This document shows, piece after piece, positions 15,091 to 19,239 of a stretch of DNA of 37,800 nucleotides. A program made the translations under genes and the position numbers. Below the pieces are notes generated by a model. That model searched no databases and was not told where the DNA came from. It saw only the letters and a program-made list of their open reading frames with translations. The DNA is from Methylotenera oryzisoli. GTDB lineage: Bacteria > Pseudomonadota > Gammaproteobacteria > Burkholderiales > Methylophilaceae. Location of the stretch: positions 1 through 37,800 of the forward strand of contig CAMBZE010000010.1 of NCBI GenBank assembly GCA_945872425.1, given 5' to 3'. Positions within the stretch are counted from its first letter, which is position 1. Each line of letters opens with the position of its first letter.

Positions 15091-16575
15091 ATGATGAAGA
15101 AATTACTCTCAATGTTTGCGTTGGTTGCCATGTTAGGCTTTGGTTTCACCGGTAACGCATTAGCAGAAGACGCAGCTCCAGCAGCTGAAACGGCAGTAGC
15201 CGTTGAAGCAGCACCAGCGGCGGCGCCAGCAGAGGCAGCACCAGCTGTCGCTGCCGCCGCCGCTCCTGTACCCAACAAAGGTGATACCGCATGGATGCTG
15301 ATTGCAACCGTACTTGTTACTTTAATGGTCATTCCTGGTTTAGCCTTATTTTATGGCGGTTTGGTTCGCCAAAAAAATATGCTGTCCGTACTCATGCAGG
15401 TGTTCATGATTTTCTCACTGATGGGTGTGTTATGGGCATTGTACGGTTATAGCGTAGCGTTCACTGGCGGCGGTCCATTCTTTGGTGGATTAAGCAAGGC
15501 GTTCTTGGCGGGCGTAACACCAGAGTCCGTTGCGGCAACATTCAGCAAAGGTGTTTACATTCCTGAGCTTGTGTTTGTAGCCTTCCAATTAACCTTTGCA
15601 GCCATCACACCAGCATTGATCATCGGTGCGTTTGCTGAGCGCATGAAATTCTCTGCAATTTTAGCGTTCATGGTGTTGTGGTTCACATTTGCTTACTTAC
15701 CACTAGCACACATGGTTTGGTATTGGGATGGTCCTGATGCAATCACTGATGCAGCTTCACTTAACACCGTACTTGCTAACGCAGGTTGGTTATGGGCTAA
15801 AGGCGCACTAGACTTTGCGGGCGGCACGGTTGTACATATCAATGCAGGTGTTGCTGGTTTGGTAGGTGCATTCATGGTTGGCAAGCGTATTGGTTACGGC
15901 AAGGAAGCCATGACGCCACACAGCTTAACTCTAACCATGGTGGGCGCAGCATTACTATGGGTGGGCTGGTTTGGTTTCAATGCTGGTTCAAATCTTGAAG
16001 CAAACGGTTACGCAGCTTTAGCTTTAGTTAACACCATGATTGCAACGGGTGCAGCTGCTTTATCCTGGTCATTCTCAGAGTGGCTGCTTAAAGGTAAACC
16101 ATCAATGCTAGGTGCCGCTTCTGGTGCTGTAGCAGGCTTGGTAGCCATTACCCCAGCATGCGGCTTTGTAGGCCCTATGGGCGCAATCGTCATCGGCTTG
16201 CTAGTGTCACCAATCTGCTATTTCTTTGTTGCTAAAGTAAAATACATGCTTGGTTACGATGACGCACTGGATGTTTTCGGCATTCATGCTATTGGCGGTA
16301 TCTTTGGCGCGCTCGCTACCGGTGTATTTGTTAACCCGGCTTTGGGCGGTGCAGGCGTGATTGATTATGTGGCAAATGGCGTAGCTGCTTACGACTTTGC
16401 GGCACAAATGACTGCGCAAGTTTATGCGGTAGTGACTGCAATCGTGTTGTCAGCAGTAGTTTCATTCATTGCTTTCAAGATTGTAGATGTGTTGATTGGT
16501 CTGCGTGTAAGCGAAGAATCTGAACGTGAAGGTTTAGATACTAGCGAGCATGGCGAACGCGCATATCATAGCTAG
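15091..16575 (+). CDS. amtB: Ammonium transporter
   Basis: AmtB is the inner-membrane trimeric ammonium channel. The 494-aa product starts at 15091 (AAGGGG at 15082-15087; a second ATG follows at 15094). It has a signal peptide (KKLLSMFALVAMLGFGFTGNALA), as in many Amt proteins, then an unusually long Ala/Pro/Glu-rich linker of about 45 residues, and then the transporter core from GDTAWMLIATVLVTLMVIPGLALFYGGLVR. Recognisable elements are GAFAERMKF, the pore segment GTVVHINAGVAGL, VGWFGFNAGS, and DVFGIHAIGGIFGALATG with the second pore His. The C-terminal tail LRVSEESEREGLDTSEHGERAY is the GlnK contact region. It is the last gene of the operon, followed by a terminator. Confidence 0.97.
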   Translation: MMKKLLSMFALVAMLGFGFTGNALAEDAAPAAETAVAVEAAPAAAPAEAAPAVAAAAAPVPNKGDTAWMLIATVLVTLMVIPGLALFYGGLVRQKNMLSVLMQVFMIFSLMGVLWALYGYSVAFTGGGPFFGGLSKAFLAGVTPESVAATFSKGVYIPELVFVAFQLTFAAITPALIIGAFAERMKFSAILAFMVLWFTFAYLPLAHMVWYWDGPDAITDAASLNTVLANAGWLWAKGALDFAGGTVVHINAGVAGLVGAFMVGKRIGYGKEAMTPHSLTLTMVGAALLWVGWFGFNAGSNLEANGYAALALVNTMIATGAAALSWSFSEWLLKGKPSMLGAASGAVAGLVAITPACGFVGPMGAIVIGLLVSPICYFFVAKVKYMLGYDDALDVFGIHAIGGIFGALATGVFVNPALGGAGVIDYVANGVAAYDFAAQMTAQVYAVVTAIVLSAVVSFIAFKIVDVLIGLRVSEESEREGLDTSEHGERAYHS

Positions 16576-16625
16576 ACCCCAAGCACCTAGTTTCTACTAG
16601 GGCTCGACTAGGTCAGGCTTAAAAA

Positions 16626-16649
16626 GGGACGCGCAAGCGTCCCTTTTTT
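16626..16649 (+). terminator. Intrinsic terminator of the porin-glnK-amtB operon
   Basis: GGGACGC (16626-16632), loop GCAA, GCGTCCC (16637-16643), followed by six T. The stem is preceded by five A. Confidence 0.95.
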
Positions 16650-16756
16650 ATGAGCGGATTCAAAGTTGCCTTTAAACTGAAATTAGCCATGAAGGTATCA
16701 ATAAAACTGATTAAGAGTTCCAAAAAGTAAACCCCAATAGTCAGCTCAATGCATAT

Positions 16757-16773
16757 CTAATGATTATCATTAG
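16757..16773. promoter_or_regulatory. Fur-box-like 17-bp palindrome
   Basis: CTAATGATTATCATTAG is a perfect palindrome about the central T (16765). It agrees with the 19-bp Fur consensus GATAATGATAATCATTATC at about 14 positions, including the whole central TAATGAT-ATCATTA core. It lies about 120 bases before pqqA. Binding by Fur is inference; any palindromic repressor could use it. Confidence 0.55.
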
Positions 16774-16782
16774 GCTGTTTTA

Positions 16783-16796
16783 ATGACTCGCGTCAT
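16783..16796. promoter_or_regulatory. Second palindrome upstream of pqqA
   Basis: ATGAC (16783-16787), TCGC, GTCAT (16792-16796). This is a short perfect inverted repeat ten bases downstream of the Fur-like palindrome, and just ahead of the region where a pqqA promoter would be expected. It is a candidate operator or activator site; no specific regulator is identified. Confidence 0.35.
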
Positions 16797-16889
16797 GTTG
16801 CAAGTTTAAGTTAGACGTATGATTCTATCCACGTAATGCAAATGCTGTTAAGCAAACGCGGTACGAATCAATCAAAAAGGAGAATTACT

Positions 16890-16961
16890 ATGTGGACAAA
16901 ACCAGCTGCTACTGAAATGCGCTTCGGTTTCGAAGTTACAATGTACGTAATGAACAAGTAA
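16890..16961 (+). CDS. pqqA: PQQ precursor peptide PqqA (orphan)
   Basis: This 23-residue peptide begins MWTKPAATEMRFGFEV and ends TMYVMNK. It has the PqqA hallmarks: MWTKP start, R-x-GFEVTMY core, and the E15-x3-Y19 pair whose side chains are cross-linked by PqqE and become the PQQ skeleton. PqqD presents the peptide to PqqE. The length (usually 22-24) and the AAGGAGA ribosome binding site at 16877-16883 (seven bases before ATG) support expression. No pqqB, C, D or E is in the window, so this is a separate copy or a detached gene. It has its own terminator. PQQ is the cofactor of Mxa- and Xox-type methanol dehydrogenases, in keeping with a methylotroph. Confidence 0.93.
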   Translation: MWTKPAATEMRFGFEVTMYVMNK

Positions 16962-16977
16962 TATCTTACGTATCGCT

Positions 16978-17004
16978 AAAAAGGGTGCTCTAAGCACCCT
17001 TTTT
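16978..17004 (+). terminator. Intrinsic terminator of pqqA
   Basis: GGGTGC (16983-16988), loop TCTAA, GCACCC (16994-16999), preceded by five A and followed by five T. It starts 16 bases after the pqqA stop and shows that pqqA forms a monocistronic unit. Confidence 0.93.
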
Positions 17005-17108
17005 ATTTGTAATTCCAGATTGCGTTTAAATCAGATCAGACGCACTAACAAAGATAGCGCTATGGCACTGCACCGTCAGTGCAGCTCAGAACTTAGCATC
17101 CGACACCA

Positions 17109-18401
17109 TTACTTCAACACAAATTCTTTCGGCAATAACACCCAAATTCTACCTGACTGCTTCATCGCGCCTGCTTTTGCACCGGCATCAGCACCCGCAC
17201 CCCAAAAGAAATCCGCACGTACGCCTCCTTTAATCGCACCACCTGTATCTTGCGCCATCATCAGGCGTTTTAAAGGTTTTGTGCTATTTGGTTCGGTGGT
17301 AGATAAAAATACCGGCGCACCCAATGGCACAAATTTCGGATCAACCGCAACACTACGCTCACTTAGAATTGGCACTCCGAGCGCACCTAGTGGGCCAGGC
17401 AAGCCTGCTGGCAACTCTCGAAAAAATACATAACTCGGATTGTTATTCAGCAACTCACGCAGTTTATCCAGATTATTACGCGCCCAATTCTTAATCCCTT
17501 GCATTGAGGCCTGCGCCAGCGTCAGCTCTCCACGCTCAATCAGCAAACGTCCTATCGAATGATAAGTATGTCCATTCTGGTTTGCGTAGCCGACATGCAC
17601 CTGTTCGCCATTCTCCAACTGCACCAAACCTGAACCTTGAATCTGTAAGAAAAAAACATCGATGATGTCATCAATATAAATGAACTCGTGTCCTTTGGCT
17701 GGCGATGCTTCCGTCTCAATTTCTGCGCGATTGTAATAAGGCACCAATTTATTCCCCACCAATCTGCCGCGCACACGCTTGTATTTTAATTCAGGGAATA
17801 GGCTATCTAATTCAACGGTAATTAAATCAGCAGGTGGCGCATATAGGGGATAGGGGTACTTCGCAGACTTGTTGCGACTGCCTTTGAGCAATGGCTCATA
17901 ATAACCGGTAATCAGACCGCTGTCTGAACCATCAACGTTTGTTGTTTTATAAACCGAGAAATATTGCTTGAAATAAGCCTGCGCCGCCGTAGCACTGGGT
18001 TTGCTAGCAGTTTGGCTATTCAGTTGCGTTGCAGCACTACACGCGTTTAGCCACATTGGTTTATTGATTAAAGTAGAGCAACTTTGCATCCACGCTGACC
18101 AGGCCAAGCTCAAGTTATCACCTTGTAAGCCATCGACCTCTTCCCACTGCGCGGGTTTGAGTAAGCTGTAATCCGCAAGTTTAGCGAGTTCTTTCTGTTG
18201 CTCTGGATGAGGCTTGATTTCTGTCAATTTTCCAGCATCAGGAATTTGTACAGGGAGTTTTTCAGCAGGGCAATCGCACTGAGCTTTAGACAGAGCAAGT
18301 GGTGGTGCAGGTAGCGTCACAGGTTTTATGGGCTTATCTGCACACGCTACAACCATCGTGGCTATCAATACGAGTAAAGCATTCTGAGCTATTTTTTTCA
18401 T
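17109..18401 (-). CDS. mltA: Membrane-bound lytic murein transglycosylase A
   Basis: MltA cleaves the MurNAc-GlcNAc bond of peptidoglycan from the outer membrane, forming 1,6-anhydro products. The 430-aa protein is a lipoprotein: signal MKKIAQNALLVLIATMVVAC with C20 as the lipidated residue. The MltA domain contains GLITGYYEPLLKGSRNKSAKYPYPLYAPP and the DVFFLQIQGSGLVQLENGEQVHVGYANQNG block. The C-terminal 3D domain has MAQDTGGAIKGGVRADFFWGAG (first Asp near residue 385), which carries the catalytic aspartate of the family. The length is near normal. It is transcribed alone or ahead of nothing obvious; thiG lies 55 bases upstream on the same strand. Its products feed the recycling route that includes mpl. 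Confidence 0.95.
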   Translation of the reverse strand: MKKIAQNALLVLIATMVVACADKPIKPVTLPAPPLALSKAQCDCPAEKLPVQIPDAGKLTEIKPHPEQQKELAKLADYSLLKPAQWEEVDGLQGDNLSLAWSAWMQSCSTLINKPMWLNACSAATQLNSQTASKPSATAAQAYFKQYFSVYKTTNVDGSDSGLITGYYEPLLKGSRNKSAKYPYPLYAPPADLITVELDSLFPELKYKRVRGRLVGNKLVPYYNRAEIETEASPAKGHEFIYIDDIIDVFFLQIQGSGLVQLENGEQVHVGYANQNGHTYHSIGRLLIERGELTLAQASMQGIKNWARNNLDKLRELLNNNPSYVFFRELPAGLPGPLGALGVPILSERSVAVDPKFVPLGAPVFLSTTEPNSTKPLKRLMMAQDTGGAIKGGVRADFFWGAGADAGAKAGAMKQSGRIWVLLPKEFVLK

Positions 18402-18456
18402 GGTTATTTAGCTAATGACGTGGCCAAAGCCGTTAATGCAGCACACTTTAATGGCA

Positions 18457-19239
18457 CTAAGTAATCAATCCGGTGCTAGGCGAGCTTGGACTGGCTGAAT
18501 ACAGCTTTTTAGGCATGCGGCCCGCCAAATAGGCATCACGCCCGGCTTCTACCGCCTTTTTCATCGCGCCTGCCATCAAAACAGGGTTGCCTGCCGCCGC
18601 AATTGCCGTATTCATTAACACCCCCTGGCAACCCAACTCCATGGCAATGGCAGCATCAGATGCTGTACCAACGCCCGCGTCTACCAAAACCGGGATTTTT
18701 GCATTTTCAATAATAATTTGCAGGTTCCATGGGTTCAAAATGCCCATGCCTGAACCAATCAAGGATGCCAATGGCATTACAGCACAACAACCAATTTCCT
18801 CTAGCTGTTTGGCAATAATCGGGTCATCAGAACAATAAACCATCACGTCAAAACCTTCTTTCACCAAGGTTTTAGCCGCAGCAATGGTTTCTATCATGTT
18901 GGGATATAGCGTATTAGGGTCGCCCAGCACCTCTAATTTCACCAGCTTGTGCCCATCTAATAACTCACGCGCCAATCGCAACGTACGCACAGCGTCATCT
19001 GCCGAATAACACCCTGCCGTATTTGGCAGATAGGTAAACTCTTCAGGCGGTAAAAAATCTAGCAGCGAAGGCTCACCGGCCGTTTGCCCAATGTTAGTAC
19101 GGCGAATCGCCACGGTAACAATTTCTGCACCACTCGCGTCAATCGCAGCGCGCGTCTCGGTAAAATTTTTATATTTACCTGTGCCCACCAATAAACGTGA
19201 AGAATAAGTTTTATCTGCAATTTTTAATAAGTCTGACAA
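18457..19239 (-). CDS. thiG: Thiazole synthase
   Basis: ThiG forms the thiazole phosphate of thiamine from 1-deoxy-D-xylulose 5-phosphate, dehydroglycine and ThiS thiocarboxylate. The 260-aa TIM-barrel protein includes [25 protein letters not shown], the Schiff-base lysine region [16 protein letters not shown], and the phosphate-binding [28 protein letters not shown]. The start is TTG at 19239, giving [16 protein letters not shown] nine bases upstream supports it, and no ATG fits. thiS lies 17 bases upstream, so the pair is an operon. The glycine/tyrosine-derived partner (thiO or thiH) and thiE are not here. Confidence 0.96.

Follow-up and report, generated by a model that had tools for sequence, protein, structure and literature searches.

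A detached pqqA copy in Methylotenera oryzisoli and a conserved palindrome, a putative operator, linked to pqqA and PqqU-like receptor genes

Introduction

Methanol dehydrogenases, both calcium- and lanthanide-dependent, use PQQ as their cofactor. In bacteria that grow on methanol, the gene of its precursor peptide, pqqA, is known to occur in several copies. Among the Methylophilaceae, genomes have been described with 3–12 pqqA copies and a single set of the other pqq genes, with one exception (PMC4109929), and in Methylovorus, which has five pqqA copies, the supply of PqqA was reported to be rate-determining (PMC11317620, citing Ge 2015). The copies have been described as reacting to different stimuli (PMC6520949), five copies were unequally expressed in a methanol-grown production strain (PMC9851590), and two orphan pqqA copies of M. 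extorquens change their expression with the neodymium source (PMC11317620). As regards control, in Pseudomonas the LuxR-type regulator AgmR is reported to activate the pqq operon in trans (PMC12997753), and for the PQQ importer PqqU a regulation independent of the pqq operon was inferred from absent synteny (PMC12124388).

Here we analysed a stretch of 37,800 nucleotides of the Methylotenera oryzisoli genome (contig CAMBZE010000010.1, hereafter the window). The original prediction, based on the sequence of the window, had proposed that it carries an orphan pqqA gene, isolated from pqqBCDE and possibly under a control of its own.

Results

The window carries a detached pqqA, and the genome a second copy ahead of pqqBCDE

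The pqqA gene of the window (16890..16961, + strand) is composed of 23 codons plus a TAA stop codon at 16959-16961, and encodes the peptide MWTKPAATEMRFGFEVTMYVMNK. The predicted 23-residue PqqA with intact E15 and Y19 was confirmed both by translation and by family models, with scores of 42.4 bits against PF08042 (curated cut-off 21.1) and 40.4 bits against TIGR02107 (curated cut-off 20); E15 and Y19 are the Glu and Tyr, with three-residue spacing, of the PqqA family. An in-frame ATG at 16836 would yield 41 residues, but we favoured the inner ATG at 16890, because the family model spans the 23-residue part only and because the Shine-Dalgarno sequence fits the inner start. This sequence, AAGGAG (16877..16882, + strand), ends 7 bases before the ATG, is conserved in the alignment of mltA-linked pqqA orthologs, and corresponds to the ribosome binding site that had been claimed. 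The gene likewise has its own terminator-like stem-loop, as expected (16977..17005, + strand; 13-pair stem, T-run at 17000-17004, script-computed fold of −17.8 kcal/mol). A consensus scan returned no sigma-70-type promoter on the + strand of 16570-17110, which counts against a strong promoter, and no Rfam family matched within the window. The location between amtB and mltA was also correct: the former lies upstream and ends at 16575, the latter lies downstream on the opposite strand (17109-18401). For these neighbours we adopted the names AmtB and MltA given with the original prediction; their homologs are present in all, or almost all, of the genus genomes.

We searched the whole genome (1,492,958 bases, 81 contigs, 98.3% complete) for further pqqA copies and for pqqBCDE, as had been suggested, and found both. 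PqqA had two matches, the window copy and one at position 33315 of contig C3, which has pqqB, pqqC, a pqqD-like frame and pqqE downstream of it. The claimed lack of pqqBCDE is thus correct for the neighbourhood of the window gene and wrong for the genome, and the absence of pqqBCDE from the whole genome, which had been named as a refutation, does not hold. The window gene has an upstream region and a terminator to itself, and a complete pqqABCDE stands elsewhere in the genome; it is indeed a stand-alone pqqA, and a detached copy in the sense used here (a pqqA apart from pqqBCDE in a genome that holds the complete set). The C3 copy encodes an identical peptide and has a terminator-like hairpin ahead of pqqB. 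Of the 72 bases of the reading frame, 10 differ between the copies, all of them synonymously, which suggests that the peptide is under selection in each.

The gene is no oddity of this genome: pqqA was present in all 120 genomes of the family that we searched, with 1–12 matches each, and in 52/52 genomes of the genus. The window gene is a genuine and ordinary member of the published multi-pqqA pattern. As a side observation, several other families of the order carry two oppositely oriented pqqA genes on the same contig, separated by about 5 kb (genomes G174, G184, G191, G203, G229, G246, G268 and others).

The link between pqqA and mltA looks inherited

We compared the 3' flanks of mltA within the genus, recognising pqqA by pattern rather than by family model, as was also done for the alignment, operator, other-family and public-scan counts below. 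pqqA is convergent with mltA, as in the window, in 25 of 50 flanks from 49 of the 52 genomes (two had no mltA match and G152 was left out because of a contig end), some of the flanks being cut by contig ends (e.g., L080, L090, and L131). In three more (G084, G107, and G145 contig C14) pqqA lies about 2 kb from mltA, and the pair was also found in one genome of another genus (L004).

In the three relatives that we read (L142, L143, and L145), amtB and pqqA are separated by two genes, of ~670 and ~752 residues; amtB adjoins pqqA in this genome because these two genes are absent. Judging from gene order, the pqqA–mltA link looks inherited and the pqqA–amtB link incidental. In two of the same relatives a gene of 127-132 residues, which we take to be ApaG-like, follows mltA; it is absent from the window (16575-18457 compared).

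A palindrome and a half-site are conserved upstream of pqqA

The alignment of mltA-linked pqqA orthologs revealed a palindrome conserved before pqqA, here called the PQQ box, whose form in the window is CTAATGATTATCATTAG (16757..16773, + strand). The motif TMATGAWWWTCATKAG is exact at 16758-16773, 132 nt ahead of the ATG, and this is its sole exact match in the genome (control 0); the window gene therefore belongs to the PQQ-box group, which we defined by the presence of TMATGAWWWTCATKAG upstream of a PQQ gene. The palindrome is also the only match in this genome to CTMATGANNNTCATKAG at ≤1 mismatch, a level at which the backward control also matched at 1 place. Across six genomes the same search gave 20 places against 6 for the backward control, a background that we counted against the operator reading. 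The exact box motif occurs in 44/52 genomes of the genus (backward control, 1/52), and the window contains 3 box-motif matches at ≤2 mismatches, compared to 0.27 in shuffled sequences.

We then counted boxes in the upstream regions of 78 de-duplicated pqqA genes, retained from 80 after two with short upstream sequence (L014 and L064) were dropped. TMATGAWWWTCATKAG was found at ≤3 mismatches before 67 of the 78, 111-151 nt from the start codon and exact in 36, and in 57 of 1,560 shuffles; these loci come from top-scoring pqqA and mltA searches, hence they are a non-random and related set. The 11 pqqA without a box are all downstream members of tandem pairs of one genus, and in 11/11 pairs the upstream member is boxed (≤3 mismatches). 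In this small-genome genus (L011-L013, L015-L021, and L024) the paired genes stand about 200 nt apart behind one box, and their peptides differ: the upstream one ends in CNR or CNK, the downstream one in MNK.

A half-site, TMATGA with at most one mismatch, follows at exactly +23 in 51 of the 67 aligned sites. In the window it reads TAATGA (16781..16786, + strand), so that box and half-site of the window gene are both exact. The profile of the 67 sites also contains a TATNAT-like block of columns at +61 to +66, which, with the transcript start predicted from it, would put the centre of the palindrome near −64; the corresponding hexamer of the window, TATGAT (16818..16823, + strand), is a presumed −10 element that the sigma-70 scan did not return. 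The box may be a protein-binding, activating site, and the detached copy is probably transcribed.

In nine of the genus loci that we compared, pqqA stands directly before pqqB. Eight of them have a box with two mismatches (TCATGAWWWTACTTAG) and one, L049, an exact box, and by eye TMATGA at +23 within one mismatch is absent from all nine. These loci bear on the proposal that a detached copy provides precursor in excess of the processing enzymes, or under a different control. That more precursor may matter is in line with the rate-determining PqqA supply of Methylovorus, and the condition-responsive orphan copies in the published accounts agree with a regulated role, but in this genome both copies share an operator, exact before the detached gene and with two mismatches before the operon. 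A different control is consequently not our first reading: the two copies more likely answer one signal with different strength.

The box extends beyond the family and follows the pathway

In other families of the order, the exact motif precedes 13 of 25 usable pqqA genes (L345, which has no ORF, is left out), and 16/25 deviate from it by at most one mismatch. Of the remaining nine, three genes have 3 mismatches, two have 4, two have 6 and two have 7; these were counted against the conservation of the box.

A scan of public genomes for the variant CTCATGAAAATCATGAG retrieved at least 120 stretches. Among the 120 listed, 62 boxes precede pqqA, 13 precede a PqqU-like receptor gene, 3 occur with pqqB and 42 lie elsewhere, the last including Firmicutes and other distant groups. 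In the three pqqB cases (L384, L413, and L450, the first two titled Methylophilus) about 200 nt separate the box from the downstream pqqB, and this interval contains no pqqA; the box thus follows the pathway, and not merely the pqqA gene. Six Lachnospiraceae-type loci (L373, L412, L424, L431, L442, and L481) have this 17-mer 59-98 nt upstream of an XRE-like regulator gene, which seems to be an unrelated reuse of the palindrome.

Within the genus we found at least 87 box sites. Among the 87 listed, 46 are upstream of pqqA (34 assigned by coordinates, 8 by locus and 4 seen already), and the other 41 comprise 21 sites beside a glycine-zipper gene, 4 at TonB receptors, 10 at the 5' end of a metallohydrolase gene and 6 single or few cases; for these 41, families were tested on example genes and the remaining neighbours were named by eye. 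We counted these 41 sites, like the 42 public boxes elsewhere, against the operator reading. The glycine-zipper 2TM gene (L258, L259, L261, and 18 further loci), in most loci presumed from its appearance to be such, often has a gene for a periplasmic pentapeptide plus YHS-like protein running divergently from it.

Other neighbours were rejected as targets. katG, an ilv-like gene and a PAS-kinase gene account for one listed site each, and the thiG side of mltA for three, all too few. The katG case is that of G117 (L205 and L262), where the motif lies about 210 nt before the catalase-peroxidase gene. For the metallohydrolase TIGR04559, the motif is within the first codons (exact in 9 of 30 genes), and several variants break the palindrome but keep similar codons; it is therefore probably a coding coincidence, and the 10 listed sites are of this kind. 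TIGR04559 is a quinoprotein relay metallohydrolase (L260, 1095-2036, with relatives in L306-L335); in L260 a cytochrome b561 gene diverges from it, at a distance of ~108 nt from the box sequence. At E 1e-60 the family had no match in the Methylotenera oryzisoli genome.

PqqU-like receptor genes carry the box

The box-bearing TonB receptor of G117 matched PqqU/YncD in the PDB at E ~1e-132, the next receptor being at ~1e-20. Against the PqqU model NF041535 it scored 571.7 bits, and the five box-bearing receptors tested scored 571.7 to 646.5 bits; NF041535 was the best family in each, and since the scores are below its equivalog cut-off of 1200 we call these proteins PqqU-like only. Among the receptor genes of the genus, the box is present at ≤3 mismatches in 22 of 27 upstream regions and exact in 4, compared to 2 of 30 mltA control regions (L293 and L303, with the wrong upstream stretch, and L278, with a short one, are left out). 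Two receptor genes were found in this genome; the one checked (L297) has a 3-mismatch site only, which, like the lack of any exact box in this genome apart from that of the window, we counted against the shared operator. The distribution of the box suggests that PQQ synthesis and import may be under one control.

A two-component system is linked to the box in other families

In three public loci (L393, L403, and L445), the box adjoins an operon that encodes a sensor kinase together with a response regulator of the LuxR type; in the two for which domains were tested (L393 and L403), the kinase has HAMP, HisKA_3 and HATPase domains and the regulator Response_reg and GerE. In addition, the box lies ahead of a PAS-type kinase gene in the genus genome L232 and in the public locus L462, the latter accompanied by a regulator that has these domains too but is more distant (36% identity). 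The LuxR-type response regulator of the three loci is our candidate for the protein that reads the operator.

The most serious competitor, though we consider it the less probable one, is that another protein, such as a LysR-type activator, reads the element and that the response regulator is merely a neighbour of pqq clusters. LysR-type activators often bind near −65, and a palindrome near −64 with a second site nearer the promoter would suit them too. Moreover, in the Methylophilaceae loci we found no linked close relative of the response regulator. Its relatives are, on the other hand, encoded near the box in 27 of the 62 pqqA loci and 8 of the 13 receptor loci among the public stretches listed, compared to 4 of the 42 other loci and 0 of the 3 pqqB loci; the comparison is one among box-bearing stretches, and the query locus L403 is one of the 13. 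The precedent of a LuxR-type activator of pqq, AgmR of Pseudomonas (PMC12997753), also argues against a mere neighbour. So does the position of the box directly beside the kinase–regulator operon in the three loci above.

We regard as unlikely, and as weaker than the LuxR-type candidate, the possibility that the palindrome is a Fur box and the window gene an iron-regulated copy. In its favour, PqqE is an iron-sulphur enzyme, and the inner 15 bases of the box coincide with the centre of the 19-bp Fur consensus; the targets of the box include TonB receptors, one site precedes katG, and some Fur-type boxes of these genomes hold the related core ATGA-GAA-TCAT. However, a search of the window for the 19-mer at ≤3 mismatches gave no match. 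A longer Fur-type element was instead located 13 times across four genomes, compared to once for the control, and 11 of the 13 are by genes that, by eye, we assume to be iron genes (hemP, tonB, exbB, fecI, and feo; L269 and L274 have none), whereas the targets of the PQQ box centre on pqqA, pqqB and PqqU-like receptors.

It is very improbable that the window gene is a decaying, silent duplicate in a reduced genome: the genome is small for the genus (1.49 Mb) and has only two pqqA copies, compared to at least three in many relatives, but the gene differs from the operon copy by synonymous changes only, and its box, half-site, Shine-Dalgarno sequence and terminator are intact, the box being exact, unlike that of the operon copy.

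Discussion

The explanation that we consider probable as a whole is that the window contains a functional, inherited detached pqqA behind a conserved bipartite operator, for which one regulator can be proposed. The gene would be a vertically inherited copy whose product, the PqqA precursor peptide, would serve in trans as substrate of the PqqBCDE enzymes, the genes of which are on contig C3. The proposed operator would consist of the 17-bp palindrome, ~64 bp before the expected transcript start, and of the half-site 23 bp further on; this element marks the majority of the pqqA genes that we examined in the family, as well as many in the order, and recurs before PqqU-like receptor genes. A single regulator reading it would raise the supply of precursor and, in many species, increase PQQ uptake at the same time. 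Our candidate, a response regulator of the LuxR (GerE) type paired with a HisKA_3 sensor kinase, is encoded near many boxes in other families.

More broadly, and with confidence only a little better than even, we propose a PQQ regulon of beta- and gammaproteobacteria, in which the operator CTMATGAWWWTCATKAG with a half-site at +23 and a LuxR-type two-component regulator would couple scattered PqqA genes, pqqBCDE and PqqU-type import. If so, the multiplication of detached pqqA genes in methylotrophs would be an amplification of the regulon and not an escape from its control. The conserved operator and the candidate regulator make the coordination of scattered pqqA copies and PQQ import testable, and the box helps to locate short pqqA genes that annotation can miss. 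Detached pqqA copies in methanol-eating bacteria are known already; less expected is an operator common to pqqA and PqqU-like genes, as the conservation of the box suggests. In the open-licence PMC literature that we searched we found no description of this operator, its target genes or the linked two-component system.

Compared to described systems, the closest is the multi-pqqA arrangement of the Methylophilaceae (PMC4109929): the detached copies beside one pqqBCDE set are alike, but that paper gives 3–12 copies while this genome has only two, and a shared operator, found here, does not appear in the paper's account of the copies. The pqqA2 and pqqA3 genes of Methylorubrum extorquens AM1 are likewise orphan copies, and are reported to respond to the neodymium source (PMC11317620), in an organism of another class of bacteria than Methylotenera. 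AgmR/ErbR control in Pseudomonas resembles our proposal in the LuxR type of its regulator, which activates pqq in trans (PMC12997753); the likeness is one of regulator type, and the description there, in its part on pqq, gives no binding motif, whereas a box motif is found here. Finally, the boxed receptor of G117 resembles the TonB-dependent PQQ importer PqqU (PMC12124388) in its match to PqqU/YncD, although the boxed receptors score below the PqqU equivalog cut-off. For PqqU and the pqq operon that work infers independent regulation, while the box shared by pqqA and PqqU-like genes suggests co-regulation in trans.
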